64,000 nt of DNA from Cucumis sativus (Eukaryota; Streptophyta; Magnoliopsida; Cucurbitales; Cucurbitaceae): NCBI RefSeq assembly GCF_000004075.3, contig NC_026660.2:17317837-17381836 (forward strand), written 5' to 3'. Under the pieces are notes generated by a model. The model saw only the letters and a list, made by a program, of their open reading frames with translations, had not been told where the DNA came from and ran no database searches. Position 1 is the stretch's first letter. Each line of letters begins with the position of its first letter. Shown here in pieces: positions 8,647-64,000 of this stretch. The translations under genes were made by a program, and so were the position numbers.

Positions 8647-10149
8647 ATGAAGGATAGTTCTGGAGATCATAATAATTATAATAATAATCTTCATGTTAAT
8701 TATCATGATCAATATAAATCTTCTTGTCCAAGAGGCCATTGGAGACCTGCTGAAGATGAAAAACTTCGTCAATTGGTTGAACAATATGGTGCTCAAAATT
8801 GGAATTCCATTGCTGAGAAACTTCAAGGCAGATCAGGTACTTTTTATTCCTCTAAAATTTTCCATCTGGCCTCTCTCTCTCTGGTTTGAAATTAGAAGGT
8901 CCACCCAAATTCATTAATTTTTTTTAAAAAAAACTTCTCTCTAATTTGTTCTTATGATCAATTTAAATTTCTATTGATTTCTCAATCATTTTTTTTTTCT
9001 CTTTAACCGATCGAGGATGTTTATGTGTTTGGAGTAATTGTACGGACCAATAAAGTTGGTAAAATAACTAAAACAAGTAAATTAAACCAAACCCACTTAA
9101 AAAATAGGGTAAATTGAGTAAAGGGTTTGTCTTTAAAAAGGGTTAAATTTCTAAATTTGTTATCTCAATTTCATAAATCCTTCAATTTTGATGTTAATAA
9201 AGAAACAAAAATTAGCTTATTGTTTTTTTTTCTTCAATAAACTGAAGTGAGAGATTCAAATAAAAAAAATCTTTTGATCATGTTTGAAATTTTCTAATTT
9301 TGTTATACTGAATATATGAACCACAAACCTGAAGATGGTCGTTAGTTTATGCTAGTTGAAGTATATAAAGCTAATATGGATTGGTATTTTTGTTGTTTGA
9401 TTTTGTTAGGAAAGAGTTGTAGATTGAGATGGTTTAATCAACTAGACCCAAGAATAATCAGAAAGCCATTTAGTGAAGAAGAAGAGGAAAGATTATTGGG
9501 AGCTCATAGAATACATGGAAATAAATGGTCACTTATAGCAAGACTATTTCCAGGTAGAACTGATAATGCTGTGAAGAATCATTGGCATGTTATTATGGCA
9601 AGAAAGCAAAGAGAACAATCAAAACTTTGTGGCAACAAAAGAACTTATCAACAATTTTCAAATTTAATTCTCAACAACAACCAAATTACAACACAATCTT
9701 CATCCTCAACAACAAATCATCATCATCATCATCATCATCATCCTCAACTTACAACAACTACAATTCTTGTTTCTGACTACAACAACAACAACAGCAACAG
9801 CAAAGATGGAATGGTTTGGAATTTCAGACAGGGCTTCAAAGGTTATTCAGACAATAATAATATTCTCTATAGATCATCGTCTTCTCATTTTAATTATAAC
9901 TATTATCCTAATTCTTCATCTTCATCATCATCATCAGCTAGATTTTGCTTCCCAAATAATAAAATTCCTATTGGGGTTTTTGAATTTGGTAGCCCTTCAA
10001 CTACAGCACTTATGAAGTTCATGGCTAACACTGATGATCGTAATAATAATCATGATCAACAACCACAAGTACTACAACAAGAGGAATCTCTTAAGGACAA
10101 GGATAATATCCCCTTCATAGATTTCCTTGGAGTTGGAATTTCTTCTTGA
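8647..10149 (+). CDS. R2R3-MYB transcription factor, MYB52/54/56/105/117 clade
   Basis: Two exons, 8647-8836 and 9410-10149, joined across a GT-AG phase-1 intron in the codon for Gly64, give 309 residues. The ATG at 8647 is chosen because it is the last in-frame Met before the domain; an in-frame ATG at 8623 is possible but its codons look like leader. R2 spans about 30-79 with three Trp and the [11 protein letters not shown] recognition region. R3 spans about 82-129, has Phe in place of the first Trp as usual, and ends H-W-H-V-I-M-A-R. This W-F-N-Q-L-D-P-R and E-E-E-E-E-R-L-L pattern marks the clade linked to secondary-wall formation, organ boundaries and meristem function. The C-terminal half is low complexity: eight His (167-174), Ser runs and Asn runs. 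It should act in the nucleus as a DNA-binding regulator. Targets cannot be read from the sequence, and the paralogue within the clade is uncertain. Confidence 0.93.
9721..9742 (+). repeat. CAT microsatellite encoding a poly-His run in the MYB
   Basis: Eight consecutive CAT codons (one just before 9721) give a pure histidine run. Nearby ACAACA/AACAAC and TCATCA tracts give Asn, Thr and Ser runs. These are coding microsatellites in the disordered tail, outside the DNA-binding domain, and probably vary in length between accessions. Confidence 0.75.
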
Positions 10150-13755: not shown

Positions 13756-13829
13756 GACCGCATAGCGCAGTGGATTAGCGCGTCTGACTTCGGATCAGAA
13801 GGTCGTGGGTTCGACTCCCACTGTGGTCA
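13756..13829 (+). tRNA. tRNA-Arg (anticodon TCG)
   Basis: A complete cloverleaf without intron. Acceptor GACCGCA pairs with TGTGGTC, the anticodon stem TCTGA pairs with TCAGA around loop CTTCGGA, and the T arm is GTGGG-TTCGACT-CCCAC. The discriminator base A is at 13829. Internal A- and B-box promoter sequences are intact. Nuclear-type gene that decodes CGA-family arginine codons. Confidence 0.96.
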
Positions 13830-41622: not shown

Positions 41623-41694
41623 GGTTCTATGGTGTAGTGGTTAGCACTCTGGACTTTGAATCCAGCGACCTGGGTTCGACTCCCGGTAGGACCT
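41623..41694 (+). tRNA. tRNA-Gln (anticodon TTG)
   Basis: Complete cloverleaf without intron. Acceptor GGTTCTA pairs with TAGGACC (one G-T pair). The D arm begins GGTGTAGTGGTTAGCAC, the anticodon stem CTGGA pairs with TCCAG around CTTTGAA, and the T arm is CTGGG-TTCGACT-CCCGG. The discriminator is T at 41694. It lies about 430 bp upstream of the DnaJ start codon, same strand. Nuclear-type gene that decodes CAA. Confidence 0.96.
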
Positions 41695-42126: not shown

Positions 42127-45100
42127 ATGGTGAATGATACTGAGTATTACGACATTCTTGGTGTTCGTCCTTCTGCTTCTGAGGAGGAGATTCGTAAGGC
42201 TTATTATCATAAGGTTCGTTTTCTCTGATTGATTGTTTTTTTTTTTTCTTTTTTTTTAAGGATTTTGAGTTCTGTTCTGTTAGTTAGTTGATGGAAATTG
42301 TGATTGAATGGCAATGGAATAGGAATTGTTTGATTAGTTTCATGTTTGAGACTTGAGTTGATTGTTCTTGTTCAGGCGAAACAAGTCCATCCGGATAAGA
42401 ATTTGAATGATCCTCAAGCTGCTGAAAGGTTTCAGGCATGTATACGTTTCATGTTTTGCATAATGCGGAACTTTTCCCCAGCTGCTGAAGTTATTTGCTG
42501 TATACTAATTACTTTCCGCAGGCTTTGGGTGAAGCTTATCAAGTGTTGAGTGATGCAGTCCAAAGAAATGCCTATGATAGGAATGGGAAGCATAGTGTTA
42601 CTAGGTTAGATCTCTTGGTTGAGATTCATTTGTATATGTGGTTTTCCTTCATCCACGCTGATGTCATTCTTTTTAGTTAATTGGTTTCTTCTCCTCCGTA
42701 CTGTTCTGTGCTGTTCTTTCTTTTGACATTATTGGATTTGTGATGTTCAGGGAATCCATGCTTGACCCTACTGCTGTTTTTGCACTTTTATTTGGAAGTG
42801 AATTATTTGAGAACTACATTGGGCATTTAGCTGTAGCATCAATGGCCTCATCTGAATTAGAGAGCGAATCTGGCAATCCAGAGAGATTACATGATAAGTT
42901 GAAGGCAAGTATGCCGTATCGTGTTTACATGTTTCATTAAGTGCATATCTTTATACCTCAGATTTGTTTTTTAGTTTTAACACTTGCAGAGTGGCAGATC
43001 AAACTATAGATCTTTTGAATAGTCTCTTATATACTAAGCAATGTTTGCTTGTAGTATAGGGTTGTCGCTTATAATATGCTTGCTACAACACTTTATTTGG
43101 TAGCCAATCCTTCTCTAAACATTTTTTTTATATCTATAAGCAATCTCTTGGATTATAAGGAATTCTGTTCCTGCCCACCACACTCTCTTTCGTTTTTTGT
43201 TAATTTTTTTATTCCTTTTCTAGGTAGAACTCTCAGGAACATGAATCTATTTTCTTATTTGTTTCTCCCTCTACACATGTTTGTCTCTTAAATTTGAAAA
43301 GATTCCAAAATCTATGAGAGGCTGTAGTTTTAGCTTCCCACAAAATTAGCACATAACATCGGACTCTTCCATGCTCCAAAAAAGGGATGTTTATTTATGT
43401 AGATAATATGTTCTTGTGTTCAAGACTCACTTTCTCTAAACCATCTCCACATCCCTGATATGCAACCTATCTATTGTAGGCTGTCCAGAAAGAAAGAGAA
43501 GAAAAACTTGCACGTATACTTGAAGATTTTCTTAATCAATATGTTCAAGGTGATAAAGACGGATTCTTACAGCATGCTGAATCTGAAGCTAAAAGACTTT
43601 CTGATGCAGGTAAGAACTATTATATAATATGGCAACTACGCTCTTTCTTTCTCGCCCTTTTCCTTTCAGATTTCATTTAATTACTAACGTTGACTGTCTC
43701 TTGTTGCAATTCTTGTGTTATTCTACGCAAGAATGTTATGTGTCTAGCCATGTGGAAACACACCTTAATAAGATTGGAACTTTCTCGAAAGCTTATTGAT
43801 GCAGGAGCCATCTTGTATTTTCTTTGATGATTGTAGTTTTCTCTATCTTGGACATGCAGCTTTTGGCGTTAATATATTGCACACTATAGGCTACATTTAT
43901 TCGAGACAAGCAGCACAAGAGCTTGGAAAGAGAGCCATTTATCTCGGAGTGCCATTTGTGGCCGAATGGTTTCGCAACAAGGGACATTTTTGGAAGTCAC
44001 AAATAACAGCTGCAAAAGGCATGAAGATCTCAAGCTCACACTTGGTCTTCTTCTTCCCATAGATGATTGAGTATTCTGCTTTGATATTTTGCTACTTAAT
44101 AATTTCAACTATTTATATGTATCCAGGTGCATTTCAGTTGTTACAACTTCAAGATGATATTAGCAGGCAATTTAAAATGGATGGGAGTGGCCCTGGAACT
44201 GATATTGAATCGCATATTCAAGCGAATAAAGACACATTCCTCAATTCTCTGTGGAGGCTTAACGTGGTTGACATTGAACTGACTCTTATAAATGTGTGCC
44301 AAATGGTGAGATCTCTCTTTCTCTCTTTTTAAAACTGAATATTTGGGAACTTATCAAATTATCCAGGGAAGTTGGTTGCACTTAGTTATGATTCCTAGGC
44401 AATTAGGACTTAGGAAGTATTGGTACTTTGATATTGAAAACAATAAATTCATTAGTTATTGGGCCCAGATAATGAATGTTTGTTGTCCAATTTATTCCCC
44501 AGGTGCTACGGGATACTACTGTTAGAAAGGAAGATCTAAAAGCTCGCGCTCTGGCACTGAAGGTTCTTGGAAAGATATTCCAGGTTCAATATTCTTTCTT
44601 GTATTTATTGATTGCCAGAGGCCAAACAACATTTTTTTCCCATTATTGAAGTTTTCTTAATTTTACTAAAATTTCGTTGATGCCCCACAAGTTCTGGCCG
44701 TTTTCATGCACGGATCTAGTGATAATGGTTTTTAATGGATACAGTGTCCTCTCTGATGTCAAAGTCACACCACTATAAAATGCCGGGATGTTCTGCATTT
44801 TTATGATGTATTTTTAAGAATAAGAGTGATAGTGATCCGAGTTTTTAACGTCTTGTTTTTAAAACTACTTAATGTCTTCATCAGCAAGAGAAGCAGGCGC
44901 AAGATAGTGGTACGTCAAGAAAGAAAGGTGCTGCTGCAGTAGATGACGAAGGAACGAGTTCAGAGAGCAGCGATGATGAGGATGATCCCCGAAGACCTCT
45001 GTCGTATCGAACTCCTTTTCTTACTCAGGCAAGTACATCAACTCTCTCCTTTTCCATTCAAAAGGGGATCCACTTTATCTTTTGAAACTTGCACGGAAAA

Positions 45101-46377
45101 GTTTTGCTATCATAATTATGGGTCAGAATTAATCACCAAGTTGACTCTTTTGGTAGCTTCTATAGACTAACATTGCTAACCGGGTCGCTGGCTTTTCTTC
45201 TTAAGCTCATACAATACATAAGAAATACAAATACGATCAACTTAACCTGAATGAGTATGGACTCGTTCATTTTCTGTCTTTTGAAAGTATGACAACTTTT
45301 TCATAAGCTTTTTTATCTCTCCAGTTGTCTCGAAAATCCTAACACTAGGCGTGTTAGAATAATTGGACTAAGCTGATAACTCAAACTACTTAATTCATAT
45401 TATATAGATTGGATTAGGTTAGTTTCAAATATAACCCAAAATCCTACCATGTCCTTTAATTTTAGACTTAAATAATCAATGTATATAGGGATTTACAAGC
45501 CACTGAAAAAGTAACTCTATGGTTATGTTAAATTACACTTCTAATTTTGTGTTTAAAAGTTTTGTTTTTCCTTTGAAACATTTAAAATTATAATAATTAG
45601 TTGTTATCATGACATTTTTAGAAATTCCTACACCTACTTCACACAAACTTACAAGTTTTAAGATCTCATATTAAACATGTTACTAACAATTTATTTAATT
45701 TTGAACTTCTCAAATACTTTTTGAAGATTTGTTCAAATTCAAAATTATTTCGACAACTACCATTTCTTTACAAAAATTAACTTTGACATAAAATTGAAGC
45801 CTCATATTTCATAAACATATTAACTACAAACTTGAGATTTCAAGATTTAAGGTATTGAAGAGTTATTAGGAAAAGTTTCAATTGATTTAAAATAAATCAG
45901 AAGAATAGAAATTCTAGAAATAAAAGCCGTACTTTTCTATTATAATAATTAATGATATAAAGTGATGAAACCTTCTACCACCAGAGAAGAATATTATATT
46001 ATATGTCACTATTGAATTGAATTCATGTTGGTAAAATACTATACCTAGTCTTCTTAAAGTTTTGCATCTTTTGATTTTCTATGCCACTAAAGGATATGTT
46101 TCAATTGCTTTTCAGTTGATTAAACTTAGAAAGTTTATTTACTTTTCATTAGTTTCTTACTTTCTTCATCTGTAATTTTTCTTTCATTAACCCAAAGATA
46201 ATAATAATAGTACTTCTATTTGATTAAACTTTTGGACTATTTGATGGGAAGGACGGTCACGGTCGAAGTGCTATATTATTTGTTCATGTCGTGCAGGGTA
46301 TAGGTAGACTCTTCAGATGCCTCTGTAACCCAGCATTTGATGTTGACGATGATGAAATTGTGTATAAAAGCAAATGA
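42127..46377 (+). CDS. DnaJ (Hsp40) protein with DnaJ-X domain, ATJ10-like
   Basis: Ten exons: 42127-42213, 42376-42435, 42522-42604, 42751-42904, 43480-43609, 43860-44018, 44127-44305, 44503-44583, 44885-45028 and 46297-46377, coding for 385 residues. The J domain spans about 5-70 with the Hsp70-activating H-P-D at 34-36. The DnaJ-X domain follows at about 125-330 ([28 protein letters not shown]). A basic linker, an acidic Ser/Asp stretch ([10 protein letters not shown]) and [14 protein letters not shown] complete it. There is no Gly/Phe or zinc domain, so it is a class III co-chaperone; relatives are cytosolic, nuclear or membrane-associated. Introns 2, 4, 6 and 9 start with GC instead of GT (CAG|GCATGT, AAG|GCAAGT, AAAG|GCATGA, CAG|GCAAGT). 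Nearby GT donors checked at introns 2, 4 and 9 break the frame, and none suits intron 6. A CT-rich leader lies upstream. The 3' end faces the SKP2 gene. Confidence 0.9.
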
Positions 46378-47039: not shown

Positions 47040-50000
47040 TCAATGAGCTGAATGAAGAAAAGCAGTTGCCGCACGGTGAGCTTGGACTGCACAAGCACAG
47101 TGCACAGAGATCAAATTTAAACAGCCACTCATGATGAGAGAATGGCGACCCGAGCAGGTGTGGAGAGCTGGAAATGAATCACAGACTGCTTGAACAGCAG
47201 GGGGAGTGAGAGCTGTGCATTGGCTTATGTTGAGAGTTCGAAGACCATCATCATCATTCTTGCCTTTCCCTGTTCCCCATTTTGTGGGTTTGTTCTTTAT
47301 ACAGCTATGTGCCAAAGAGTACATAGCTCTGTCCGTTATGTTTTGACAATAGTAGAGGCCAAGGGACCTCAGATGAGGACACATATTTGCCAAAGCAATC
47401 ACACTATCATCTGCAGATGAGCCAAAATAATCAACTACATTGAGCTACACTATTATAAACTAACCACTGTTCTAAAGTTTTAAAATCATCATTTCCATCA
47501 GTCATAAAAGAGTTTTTAACAACAATTAGAGAGAAGAAAACACGCTGAAAGTTGAGACGACTATTCTGACAAAATAGCTTTCACTTGCCCTCAGTTATGC
47601 AAGAGGAAACTCTCAAAAAATGGAAGTTCAGATCTGAGGGATTTCCATAGTTTCGAAGAATTTTTCTCATAACCAAGACAATGAGAGTAGCTCAGGAAAA
47701 GGCTTCTCCATGAGCCACTCACATAAAATCATGGGAAATTGCCGAAGGCGAGTGTCACACGTTTTTCATTTTGCATGTGTGAAGTGTATCGGGTGTATAT
47801 TATTAGTGTAACAACTGTATCAAATGTACCCGTACTATTTTGGTATTTCATTGGTTAGAGCCTTTCTATCCATTTTTGTAAAACGTAGTACCTTTGAGCT
47901 TTGAGCCTAAATTTTTAGAGCTTAATTTGCAGATCAATATGCAAGAAGCCCAAAAATCATTTACCCCCTCATCAAATACAAAAGTGGTAACATTGAGTTT
48001 GAACCCATGAGAAGTGATGCTATTTGGTTTCCTTTCTAAGGTACATTGAAGAAAATCATGATTTTGTTTCAATCCATCAATTTCATGGAGCAAAGGGCTT
48101 TGCTTGGCAATAAAAATCAAATTGCTGGTGTAGAAAAAAAAAAAAATCATAGATTTAATGGCAACCAGAGCTGGAAGGAATGGAAGAGTATAAAGGATAT
48201 TTGAGGTTAACAATACACCTTTCGGGAGGGCCATGTGTAAGGGTAATTTGACTAGTTGGCATCTGTAATGGTAGGGCTTAATAGTCCCTCCAGATCAATA
48301 TCGTGAGTCAAAGTTCACTAAATATAAATCTACAGAAATCAGGTGATCGAGTTAAGAGATGTACCTGTAATTAGAACACAGCCACACAAGTCTAGGATTC
48401 GAAGATCAGGACATCCATACGCCAAACTCATCACACCCACATCAGTCACATTTTCACACCATCCAAGATTTACAGACTGCAAATGATTACAGTATTGTCC
48501 GATAGCCTACACATGAACAAAAGTTGATTACATCATTCATCTTGAAACAAGCTAAACTTGCTTAATCTGTAGTTTGTACCTGCAATGCAGTGTCAGATGC
48601 AGCCTTGACACATCCACAAAGATTAAGAACTTTTAGCTTTCTGCAATAACTGGCCAGATAAGCCAGTGCAGTGTCACTGAATGCAGTACAACCACTAATA
48701 TTAAGTCTCTTAAGATCACGGCAACCATGAGCCAGAGCATATAACGAGAGATCACTGAGCTTGAAACTTTTGCTCAGGTCCAGGACCTGCAGATCATGAC
48801 AGTAACTAGCAATGGTCTCAACAGCATCGTCGCCAAGCTGGGGTTTATCTTGGCGCAAGATTAGATTTTGCAGTCTTGCAAATTTAGGAGCAAGGGATAG
48901 GACCAAGTTGTTCATGTTCTTTTGGCACCTGAAACAAAAAGGGACACCAACTAGCAATTAACTAAGTTGTCTATTCATTTTCATGTCATCAAAGATGTCC
49001 CATCAGTATATCTTTACACTCCATTTCAATTAAAAACAGAGGCTACTGAACAACTTTCCTTGCCAAGCATATATCTTAATATAGCAAATCACTATTAAAG
49101 TACTTCCAACAAGTTCTAAGTTGATAGTTTAAATTCATATAATAATAATGATGTACTTGAGTAGCATGCACCAGTCAAGGGTACAAGAGCTTAATGTGGT
49201 GCGGCCTACATAACATCAAAATAGATGTCATTCATTAGACGTATAAATGTCTAAAAGTAAGAGTTTATCTTTCTGGTATTAAATGTCTAAAAGTAAATGT
49301 TGAAGCTATACTTACAAAATAAAAGTCATAAGTTTGTAGCAAGAAAAATCAAGCTTGCACCGTTCCTGATATGTTTATGATTTATAAGTCAACCTCCAAA
49401 GACAGAGTTATCACATAGCAATGGGAGAACTTAAAGTAAGTAATTGATAACTATGGAAAGTTAACCATCTTCTTTAAATAAAGAGTCGAGCAAAGATATT
49501 ATACACCAAAGTAATTGGGAAAAAAAAAAGTTTTTTCTATCCTAACAAACTCAAGTAAAAACCAATTCACTACTACTCGTTCACGTCCTCAAAAAGGTAG
49601 CAGAGAAACGGGATCACTTGAATTGAGATACAACTACGTATTTTCTGAAGGCTTTTATTTTCTTATAACTACGTGCTGATGCGCCCTATCAACTTTAGAG
49701 GGACTAGGACACAACAATATATTGACGAAATTTACATAATATGGTGGACAAAGTTAACGATAGGGGACAATATCAAAACCCAAAATTTCTTGTTTGCTAA
49801 ATAACAGTGTATTATTTTTAAACATATAAAATCAAAGCCATCCAGATCAACTGTCACCCTTCCCATCCAACCAAGCCTTTGTATAAATTATTGTGATTCG
49901 AGGAATTAAGTGATATAAATACTACAAAATAAAATACTAATAAAACCAGAAGGAAGGACTCCAAGTCATCATATAATATGAAAGTGAAACAATAACACAG

Positions 50001-50670
50001 GGAGAAAATCAATATAAACAAGATGCCGAACTGAAAATCTTGGACGAAACGACTAATAAGTAATAACAATACAATTCAATAAGATAAGAGTAACATAAGA
50101 GATCAAAGCCTGGTTGGATAACAAATTAAGCTTTTAAACACAACTCCCACCTATGATCTCTTTTTGTTCTATTATCTACTTTTCACAAATGTTCTCAAAA
50201 TCTATGCTCAAAGAATACTTTTAAAAAACTTTGTATAATGTTTCTTCAAATGTTTTCTATCTGAGAAAGACAAAGCCATGGTAAGAAATTTGTTTAACAA
50301 ATTGTGAGAAAACAAGCAAAATTTTCAAAGGAAAAAGTAAAACCAAATAGTAATCGAAGGCATCCAAAGAAAGGCATCCAAAGCAAGTCAAAAGGAAGTA
50401 CCATGAGAGGGAAAGATGGGCAAGGCCAAAGCAAATAGCATCCCTCCATCCACGACACACGCCTGAAGCTACAATAACAGTTCGATCATCAACAAGCGAT
50501 AGTATTTGCAACAGAAGCTCCATAGGAATATCTTTCCATCCTGCTAACACCCCACCATCCATTTGAACTCCTTTAGCACCAACGTCCATTCCATCACCAG
50601 CAACAAGCATCATGGGTTTCTCAAAGCACAAATTCAAATCTTCAGTCCTCAAGTTTTCTTTACCAACCAT
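47040..50670 (-). CDS. SKP2A: F-box/LRR protein, SKP2A/SKP2B type (SCF ubiquitin ligase subunit)
   Basis: Four exons on the minus strand: 50670-50402, 48928-48580, 48506-48365 and 47410-47040. All introns are GT-AG and the product is 376 residues. The first ATG is at 50670; the open frame above it (to 50688) begins with TTG and is leader. An F-box at about 43-88 (W-K-D-I-P-M-E-L-L-L-Q-I-L, then R-G-W-R-D) should bind ASK1/SKP1. Leucine-rich repeats with L-x-x-L-x-L-x-x-C and N-I-S-G-C-T motifs fill about 100-335, followed by the conserved G-R-H-S-L-I-M-S-G-C-L-N-L ... V-H-C-A-C tail. The Arabidopsis proteins recruit cell-cycle factors such as E2Fc and DPB for degradation, and SKP2A binds auxin. 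Whether this copy is nearer SKP2A or SKP2B is open. A noncoding 5' exon is probable (separate entry). Confidence 0.93.
47866..48234 (-). other. 122-codon open frame nested in SKP2 intron 3
   Basis: An ATG-initiated frame of 122 codons lies wholly inside the intron between exons 3 and 4, same strand as the gene. It has a hydrophobic start and a Phe run but no recognised domain. It is unusually long for AT-rich intron DNA but may still be chance or an old insertion. Confidence 0.2.
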
Positions 50671-61772: not shown

Positions 61773-63689
61773 TCAATGTATTATTTCCATACACTGTTCA
61801 TGGTCAATCCCATATTCAATCTCCCAGATGATTAATTCCAACACTGAAATGATATTTTCTCTCGATAGAAGTTGTAATTGGTCATCCTGGAAAGCATACG
61901 CATAATCTTTTGTCACAATCCAGCTGCAAGCCTTCACCTTTTGTGTAGCTATATTCTCCCAAGTCTTCTTGACACGAACCATGCTTTCCCATTGACATCT
62001 CATCGCATATGCTTGAGCCAGCACTGAATATGGTAGGGATGATTGTGGTTCCAGTTTCATCATCCACTCTGCAACTTTTTCAATGATTTTTAGGTCTCCA
62101 TGAATTGCACAAACACCAAGAAGTGACGTCCAAAACGTAGAAGTAGGTTGGTACAGTGTTGTTTTGATAATATTAACTGCTTCTTCAAATTTACCAGCCC
62201 GACTCAGCAAGTTCACAACACAAGAATAATGTTCATTCCTTGGCACGACTCCATGTTCATATGTCATTTTAGAGAAGATGACTAGCCCTTCCTCAACAAG
62301 ACCAGCATAACTGCAAGCTAATAAGACTCCGGCTAGTGTTATCCTATCTGGCAGTACACCTTCCATGACCAGTTTATTAAAAGTATGTAGGGCCTCAAAG
62401 TATTTACCATTGTCAACCAGACCCATAATCATAGTGTTCCAAGATATCAAATCTCTAAAGGGCATATCTATAAAGACTTTCATGGCATCATCAATTGATC
62501 CAACTTTAGCATACATGTCTACCAGTGAACTAGTTACAATGACATCAGACTGAAAACCTAACTTAAGAACCAAATTATGAATTTGACTGCCCAATTCCAC
62601 AGGTGTGAAAACTGAAATGGAGCTCAGCACACTGCTCAGTGTAGTGTCAATTGGCCCAAGGTTCTCTCTTAAGGTATACACAAAAAGCCACATGGAATCC
62701 CTCCAATGACCATGCCATGCAAAACTTGAGATCATGACATTACAAAGAACTGGATCCCATTGATTGGTATCTTCAAAAAGCTGCACTGCAACCTTCAAAC
62801 TGTCGCATTTGGAAAACAAGTCAATTGTAGCACTAAGTACAATACTGTTAGAAGTAAATCCCATCTTGAAACAGAAAGCAAAAATTTGCTTACCCAGTTC
62901 CAACTCTTGGAGGCAACAGCAGATACTGATCACCATTGATATAGTGAACTGATCAGGTGAGTGCTCAGTGGTTCTCATTAGAAAGAACTGATTGAGTGCC
63001 AATACTCTAAAGCCTGATCTATGACAGCCTAAAATCAAAGAATTCCAAGAGATAACATCCACCTTTTCCATGCTAGAAAATATGACAAACATATAATCAA
63101 CAAGGCCAACTTTTCCATACATATCAATCAATGAATTCCCAAGCACCATACTTGATACATCCACTCCACTTCGTATCATACTGCCATGAACTTGCTTACC
63201 ATGAAAAGCAGACGACACAAGTGAAAGCAAAATGGAGAAGGTATACTCACTTGGTCTAAAACCAGCATTTTGCATTTCCAGAGAAACGCCCATTGCACTA
63301 TTACCAAATCCAGATGAAACGTAGCCAGAAATCATAGTGTTCCAAGAAACAATGTCCCTCTCAGGCATTACATCGAACAGATGGCGGGCACCATCGACAT
63401 CGCCAAATCTAAACATACCCTTCAAGCATATGTTCCAGGATATAATATTCTTATCTTTAATCCCATCAAATACTTTCAATACGTCATGGACAGGACCAAA
63501 TAGCGCATATAGCTGGAGACAACGATTGGCCAGAAAAGTATTGCTGTCAAGGCCAAGCTTTAGCAATTGACCGTGTATTGTTTTGGCATTGTGAACAGAG
63601 CCAAGCACTAAACACCGGCGTATCAGAGAAGAGTAATGAGAAAGCAAAGCTTTGTGCGCACCAAGAAGTTTGTTTAGCTGGAGGTGCAT
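61773..63689 (-). CDS. PLS-class pentatricopeptide repeat protein with E domain (AT1G43980-like)
   Basis: A single intronless frame. The longer open stretch to 63827 begins with TTG, so the first ATG is at 63689, giving 638 residues. PPR motifs begin near residue 60 and repeat to about 540. Examples are N-I-I-S-W-N-I-C-L-K-G and D-I-V-S-W-N-T-M-I-S-G-Y, with I-D-M-Y-x-K-x-G and D-P-V-L-C-N-V-M-I-S-S-F later. The tail (W-T-S-L-L-G-V-C-A-I-H-G-D ... S-W-I-V-T-K-D-Y-A-Y-A-F) is an E/E+-type domain and there is no DYW deaminase. Such proteins bind organelle RNA sequence-specifically and act in C-to-U editing with DYW partners, or in splicing or stability. A mitochondrial or plastid destination is expected, although the short N-terminus (M-H-L-Q-L-N-K-L-L) is not a strong transit peptide. 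The AT1G43980 assignment is from memory. Confidence 0.92.
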   Translation of the reverse strand: MHLQLNKLLGAHKALLSHYSSLIRRCLVLGSVHNAKTIHGQLLKLGLDSNTFLANRCLQLYALFGPVHDVLKVFDGIKDKNIISWNICLKGMFRFGDVDGARHLFDVMPERDIVSWNTMISGYVSSGFGNSAMGVSLEMQNAGFRPSEYTFSILLSLVSSAFHGKQVHGSMIRSGVDVSSMVLGNSLIDMYGKVGLVDYMFVIFSSMEKVDVISWNSLILGCHRSGFRVLALNQFFLMRTTEHSPDQFTISMVISICCCLQELELGKQIFAFCFKMGFTSNSIVLSATIDLFSKCDSLKVAVQLFEDTNQWDPVLCNVMISSFAWHGHWRDSMWLFVYTLRENLGPIDTTLSSVLSSISVFTPVELGSQIHNLVLKLGFQSDVIVTSSLVDMYAKVGSIDDAMKVFIDMPFRDLISWNTMIMGLVDNGKYFEALHTFNKLVMEGVLPDRITLAGVLLACSYAGLVEEGLVIFSKMTYEHGVVPRNEHYSCVVNLLSRAGKFEEAVNIIKTTLYQPTSTFWTSLLGVCAIHGDLKIIEKVAEWMMKLEPQSSLPYSVLAQAYAMRCQWESMVRVKKTWENIATQKVKACSWIVTKDYAYAFQDDQLQLLSRENIISVLELIIWEIEYGIDHEQCMEIIH

Positions 63690-64000
63690 ATAAGTACTAT
63701 GGCGACTCTTGAGTGGTACGCGAGTGGAAGAGCAAATTAGGAAGAATGGAGAGGGCAGAGGATGAAGAAAGGGAAATGGGAATATCAAACAGGATAAGAC
63801 AGGTTTTCGGAAGCGACCTTCTGTCAAGTGTTCGAGGATTGAAGTGGTGGCGGATTTGGCGGAGCTTCTTTGGCTGTGAGCGAAGAGGATTGAGAAAATG
63901 GTCGCAACTCTACAATTTTACATTTGTCTTCCTTTTTTTTCTATCAATATTTACTTTTCAATGCTAAGATTTCCAAATTAATTCCAGTAATCCGTACATT
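63690..64000. other. PPR 5' flank, truncated by the window end
   Basis: Minus-strand leader and promoter of the PPR gene. The coding frame stays open to about 63827 without an ATG, so an upstream start outside normal rules is unlikely. No distinct element is seen. Confidence 0.5.

Follow-up and report, generated by a model that had tools for sequence, protein, structure and literature searches.

A DnaJ-X co-chaperone gene of Cucumis sativus with GC at three, and probably four, of its nine 5' splice sites

The DnaJ-X gene at positions 42127-46377 of the window (the whole stretch of 64,000 nucleotides of Cucumis sativus DNA that was analysed) is complete and consists of 10 exons and 9 introns. 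All nine introns close with AG; introns 2, 4, 6 and 9 open with GC, and the other five with GT. Judged from the sequence, GC is secure as the donor of introns 2, 4 and 6, and probable as that of intron 9, the least secure of the four. The density of GC donors in this gene is real and uncommon. It represents a known, U2-type class of introns, unusually dense in a co-chaperone gene that is otherwise ordinary, and not a new kind of thing. The best explanation, which we consider probable, would be that single-base GT to GC changes were tolerated in the lineage of this gene.

The joined coding sequence is 1158 nt long, contains no internal stop and encodes an intact protein of 385 aa. Residues 6-68 form a J domain (DnaJ, 88.5 bits; Pfam cut-off 27.8) and residues 131-322 a DnaJ-X domain (174.6 bits; cut-off 29.4), so that both domains of the DnaJ-X J-domain co-chaperones (PF00226 plus PF14308) are present at scores over the cut-off. 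As predicted from its sequence, the gene is a functional plant co-chaperone gene with introns at the positions and phases of its family. Its exons and its GC-AG introns are the following.

42127..42213, forward strand: exon 1, with the start codon at 42127 and the beginning of the J domain; donor GT; placed by frame, domain match and paralogue-guided alignment
42376..42435, forward strand: exon 2, with the HPD motif of the J domain; placed by frame and paralogue-guided alignment
42436..42521, forward strand: intron 2, GC-AG, tcag|GCATGT, phase 0, 86 nt; GT at the same position in both paralogues
42522..42604, forward strand: exon 3; donor GT; placed by frame and paralogue-guided alignment
42751..42904, forward strand: exon 4; placed by frame and paralogue-guided alignment
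42905..43479, forward strand: intron 4, GC-AG, gaag|GCAAGT, phase 0, 575 nt; GT in both paralogues; weak in-frame GT at +18
43480..43609, forward strand: exon 5, in which the DnaJ-X domain begins; donor GT; placed by frame, domain match and paralogue-guided alignment
43860..44018, forward strand: exon 6; placed by frame and paralogue-guided alignment
44019..44126, forward strand: intron 6, GC-AG, aaag|GCATGA, phase 1, 108 nt; GT in both paralogues
44127..44305, forward strand: exon 7; donor GT; placed by frame and paralogue-guided alignment
44503..44583, forward strand: exon 8; donor GT; placed by frame and paralogue-guided alignment
44885..45028, forward strand: exon 9; placed by frame
45029..46296, forward strand: intron 9, probable GC-AG, tcag|GCAAGT, phase 0, 1268 nt; an alternative GT-AG pair, donor +4 and acceptor +7, keeps the frame
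46297..46377, forward strand: exon 10, including the stop codon; placed by frame

The intact frame, the two domains over their cut-offs and the constraint on the protein make it very improbable that the gene is decaying and that its GC donors are the early lesions of a pseudogene. An assembly or sequencing error at the donors is scarcely credible, because it would require four T to C errors exactly at donor position +2 in a gene whose frame is intact.

The original prediction placed GC donors at 42436, 42905, 44019 and 45029, two of them reading exactly GCAAGT, and stated that joining the exons at GC restores the conserved protein. We found the same bases at these positions, with GCAAGT at introns 4 and 9, and the frame of 385 aa; introns 2, 4 and 6 are in addition selected by the proteins of two paralogues, and intron 9 we grade as probable. 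Introns 2, 4 and 6, and probably intron 9, run from GC to AG at a junction that the protein requires, as U2-type GC-AG introns do, which was found by paralogue alignment for introns 2, 4 and 6, and by frame and by eye for intron 9, where an in-frame rival is present. U12-type introns have an RTATCCTTT-like donor motif. They were ruled out here, the donors reading GCATGTAT, GCAAGTAT, GCATGAAG and GCAAGTAC.

An open frame is a weak test of these junctions, because they had been picked to keep the frame open. The junction test consisted of protein-to-genome spliced alignments in which GT and GC donors were scored equally, and the queries were the proteins of the two paralogues (residues of exons 1-8). 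These are the two further loci of the genome at which a DnaJ-X match exceeds the cut-off; a weak match on contig C6 (21.5 bits, two stops) is below it and was left out.

Contig C2, from 12502513, forward strand: DnaJ-X paralogue (DnaJ-X match, spliced alignment)
Contig C4, about 26409k-26434k, reverse strand: DnaJ-X paralogue (DnaJ-X match, spliced alignment), comprising loci L040-L043 (G000:C4:26406001-26437000)

Under neutral scoring, the C2 and C4 proteins each recovered introns 1-7 of the model, with GC donors at introns 2, 4 and 6, at the conserved residue and in the conserved phase. When GC was forbidden, the score dropped by 73 half-bits with the C4 query and by 52 half-bits with the C2 query, and the GT-only solutions for these three introns altered or lengthened the conserved protein at each place. 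When GC was allowed at a penalty of 12 half-bits, the C4 query kept it at all three donors in its range, and the C2 query kept it at introns 2 and 6, but for intron 4 it switched to the weak GT at +18, in the vicinity of an insertion in C2. It should be noted that neutral scoring can place a false GC at a poorly conserved junction, as was seen at locus L055 (see below).

The GT alternatives nearby had been dismissed in the original prediction. If introns 2, 4 and 9 are spliced from their GT at +5 with an unchanged acceptor, the protein is truncated to 53, 143 and 363 aa, respectively. The dismissal was too strong, since in-frame GT-AG options do exist. Those within 60 nt of each boundary need either a shifted acceptor or a weak GT, and include cgt|GTTTAC at +18 of intron 4, with an unchanged acceptor and 6 additional aa; ttg|GTCTTC at +26 of intron 6, with the acceptor at +11; and caa|GTACAT at +4 of intron 9, with the acceptor 7 nt downstream. 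We consider it quite unlikely that some junctions are truly GT-AG by the intron 4 or the intron 9 route. Both of these alternatives are in frame, and the C2 query under the GC penalty favours the one at intron 4. However, cgt|GTTTAC is a poor donor that lengthens the protein, and the C4 query keeps GC under the same penalty; at introns 2 and 6, the GT-only solutions that were found change the conserved protein. If the GC donors are used as modelled, gene prediction restricted to GT would put three or four junctions of the DnaJ-X gene wrongly.

The GC donor of intron 9 is based on three features: the open frame, its perfect CAG|GCAAGT context, and the exon end FLTQ|GC, which by eye resembles FATQ|GT of the C4 paralogue. 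This intron lies outside the region common to the window gene and the paralogues, and the C-terminal exon was looked for in the C4 and C2 paralogues and found in neither. Splicing from caa|GTACAT would give a protein reading ...FLTQASRLFRC..., but it depends on a further AG, 7 nt beyond a good CAG, and alters the phase, and the counterpart in C4 reads ...ATQ|GT in frame (by eye).

The paralogues also bear on the history of the GC donors. Over exons 1-8, the protein of the window gene is 62.7% identical to that of C4 and 55.0% to that of C2, the latter two being 60.8% identical to each other. Introns 1-7 are common to the three genes in residue and phase, as is the donor of intron 8 in C4. The C2 and C4 genes thus resemble the window gene in intron positions and phases, and differ from it in that every donor read is GT: all 15 introns that the alignments placed (7 for C2 and 8 for C4, where the acceptor of intron 8 is unreliable), plus two read by eye, at intron 8 of C2 and intron 9 of C4. 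All six copies of introns 2, 4 and 6 have GT; C2 has no visible intron 9. The window protein served as query for the paralogue models, which are therefore not wholly independent of it; they were identical with GC allowed or forbidden. At equal positions, introns of 86, 575 and 250 nt in the window gene correspond to introns of 5.7, 5.6 and 11.6 kb in the C4 paralogue.

The suggestion in the original prediction that the GC donors are an ancestral property of the gene is not borne out for the family, because at the matching residues and phases both paralogues read GT; on this ground, ancestry across the whole family was rejected. Since the paralogues have GT at the matching introns, the simplest history is a change in the window gene: most simply, GT would be ancestral and the GC donors derived by GT to GC changes in its lineage, a polarity that is drawn, with no outgroup, from two paralogues within one genome and from models built on the window protein. 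The GC changes could still be old within the orthologous line of the window gene itself. Synonymous differences are near saturation (pS 0.75-0.79) and nonsynonymous ones low (pN 0.23-0.30; 0.78 and 0.23, respectively, against C4 over residues 1-311), so that the GC changes may be spread over a long time, during which the protein stayed constrained.

In plants, GC-AG introns are reported to make up 1.2% of RNA-supported introns (PMC6310983) or 1.488% of introns (PMC7072748), values to which the figure of about 1% in the original prediction is close. The introns described here resemble plant U2-type GC-AG introns in having a GC donor in a mostly consensus, AG|GCAAGT-like context, an AG acceptor, and ordinary positions and phases; they differ from this average in that three or four of them occur in one gene of nine introns. 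At a share of 1.488% and with independent introns, the probability of at least 4 of 9 is 5.8e-6 and that of at least 3 of 9 is 2.6e-4. The earlier wording that four in one gene is far above chance therefore holds under independence, but much less so if introns within a gene are correlated. Assuming a geometric distribution of introns with the published means of 27,232 genes and 4.15 introns (PMC6310983), a plant genome would be expected to contain 0.14-0.31 genes with four or more GC introns, and 0.005-0.011 such genes with at most 9 introns. For assumed values of the correlation within genes, these expectations rise to 3.6-5.1 and 0.24-0.35 genes at a rho of 0.02, to 13-17 and 1.5-2.1 at 0.05, and to 31-40 and 5.9-7.6 at 0.1. 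These figures concern a gene that had been picked as the striking one in a scan.

A comparison within the same genome included the gene next to the DnaJ-X gene.

47040-50670, reverse strand: F-box/leucine-rich-repeat gene, intact, 376 aa, four coding exons; 3' of the DnaJ-X gene and convergent with it

In a small, partly by-eye and author-chosen set of 41 introns (21 in J domains, 17 in the paralogues and 3 in this neighbour), one has GC, versus 4 of 9 in the window gene (Fisher p 0.0025, or 0.016 with intron 9 counted as not GC). A local bias towards C was considered and rejected: all three coding introns of the neighbour, found by eye, are GT-AG, and the GC content of introns is 0.317 versus 0.310 for the window. 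The J-domain sample consisted of 42 aligned loci, including 20 (L044-L063) from among the 87 J-domain matches in the genome; L006 and L007, being repeats of L044 and L045, were left out of the count. There is no intron inside the J domain in the remaining 20 loci outside L044-L063, some of which are repeats of one place; one or two are present in 19 of the 20 loci L044-L063, and none in L051. The aligner output for these 20 loci contained 22 introns, two of them with GC (L047 and L055). The GC donor at L055 was rejected, since the call consisted of two introns three residues apart and a rerun at a higher intron penalty moved the GC elsewhere; the sequence reads gaaaaa|GTGAGC where the relative L057 has gaag|GTAACA, and it was counted by eye as one GT intron, which leaves 1 GC among 21. 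L047 (G000:C3:38076500-38082500, reverse strand) is a J-protein gene with gag|GCAAGT at the J-domain intron, its relatives L044, L045, L046 and L048 all reading GT there; with GC forbidden, the score of L047 falls by 25 half-bits. L053 (C6:12454700-12460700) and L054 (C7:5600000-5606000) have an equal alignment score and an equal intron of 706 nt, perhaps as the result of a duplication; the compared stretch is not identical, and both were counted.

A survey of human and mouse reported few coding genes with more than two GC-AG introns per transcript, most transcripts with a GC-AG intron having one (PMC7242645). Our literature search returned no paper joining 'GC-AG intron' with 'DnaJ', and, as far as titles and the starts of abstracts tell, no plant gene known for many GC-AG introns was among the matches listed.

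Outside +2, the GC donors of introns 2, 4, 6 and 9 match the consensus CAGGTAAGT at 7, 7, 5 and 8 of 8 positions, respectively, and the GT donors of introns 1, 3, 5, 7 and 8 at 5, 5, 7, 4 and 4. Introns 2, 4 and 9 are thus close to CAG|GTAAGT, and intron 6 is weak. Computed pairing with U1, with C at +2, is -4.5, -5.4, -3.0 and -6.9 kcal/mol for GC introns 2, 4, 6 and 9, and -4.6, -5.5, -11.0, -8.1 and -5.6 kcal/mol for GT introns 1, 3, 5, 7 and 8. The GC donors are weaker on average, with overlap, in that GT introns 1, 3 and 8 are no stronger than GC introns 4 and 9. According to a study on mammals, GC donors adhere more closely to the consensus, a strong context permits neutral fixation, and conversions from GT to GC (298) outnumber those from GC to GT (40); its authors link these conversions to alternative splicing, and regard neutral fixation in a strong context as an even more plausible first step (PMC2490688). 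At positions with GC in Arabidopsis, 9,830 compared plant sequences are reported to have GC and 13,045 GT (PMC7072748), which indicates that exchange between GT and GC at a fixed place is common.

We propose that, after the split from the two paralogues, three or four U2-type donors in the lineage of the window gene underwent a T to C change at +2. The resulting GC sites would still pair with U1 outside +2 and be spliced, probably a little less efficiently; they would be used in RNA, splicing would be mostly constitutive, and the changes would have been tolerated neutrally, given the strong context at introns 2, 4 and 9, and not selected. The intact coding sequence of 10 exons with both domains, the GC junctions selected by the paralogues and the constrained protein are in line with this proposal, as is the same substitution of GC for GT at L047 elsewhere in the genome. 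On the other hand, several such changes in one gene are improbable under independence, as calculated above, intron 6 has no strong context (5 of 8), the GC donors are on average weaker in computed U1 pairing, and the abstract of the same mammalian study offers selection for alternative splicing as the cause of GC accumulation in mammals (PMC2490688). We regard the neutral account as the most economical one.

Alternatively, the weak GC donors may be kept by selection as a regulated design, in which several introns are retained, or the GT at +5 is used, for instance upon heat, and the co-chaperone is shut down through premature stops and decay of the transcript. We consider this unlikely. Introns 2, 4 and 9 have a GT at +5 that would shift the frame if used; but the donor consensus itself includes a GT at this position, and so does GT intron 1. 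Likewise, a stop ahead of the normal one results whichever of the nine introns is retained. The early stops invoked in the original prediction, which also suggested a regulated splicing design, do not distinguish the GC introns from the GT introns of the same gene. AT1G77020 is, we assume, the putative Arabidopsis orthologue of the window gene. It has been reported among the DNAJ genes whose transcripts are more abundant in young leaves than in old ones under 1 h of heat (PMC9280325). Plant GC-AG sites are reported to be less used than GT-AG sites (PMC6310983), and the GC-AG class to be significantly elevated among alternative donors in a study of rice and Arabidopsis (PMC1769492). GC-AG introns reportedly account for 2.61% of retained versus 0.90% of constitutively spliced introns in Arabidopsis, but even among the retained introns they are a small class (PMC4128822). 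The regulated GC donors of let-2 of C. elegans (PMC2490688) resemble those described here in being GC donors expected to be weaker than GT, regulation being hypothetical in the window gene. Because three of the four GC donors have a strong context, tolerated drift fits better than a regulated design.

A more specific form of selection can be imagined, in which the GC set acts as a valve on splicing speed: when U1 or splicing becomes limiting, for example upon heat, the GC introns would be retained jointly and the co-chaperone switched off, GC being conserved in orthologues and GT in the paralogues. We view this as a speculative and improbable scenario. A gene with multiple GC donors, set against two GT paralogues with equal intron positions, offers a clean natural comparison between drift in a strong context and selection for leaky splicing.

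The F-box/leucine-rich-repeat neighbour is putatively SKP2-like, in that it resembles Arabidopsis SKP2A/SKP2B. We take SKP2B (AT1G77000) to lie close to a DnaJ gene as well, AT1G77020, and on this view AT1G77020 would be the orthologue of the window gene. On the other side of the DnaJ-X gene lies a tRNA gene.

41623-41694, forward strand: tRNA-Gln (TTG) gene, which precedes the DnaJ-X gene in the same orientation and ends 432 bases before its start codon

The window also contains a tRNA-Arg (TCG) at 13756-13829 and two long open frames which by eye are pentatricopeptide-repeat-like (61773-63827, reverse strand) and MYB transcription factor-like (9349-10149, forward strand).
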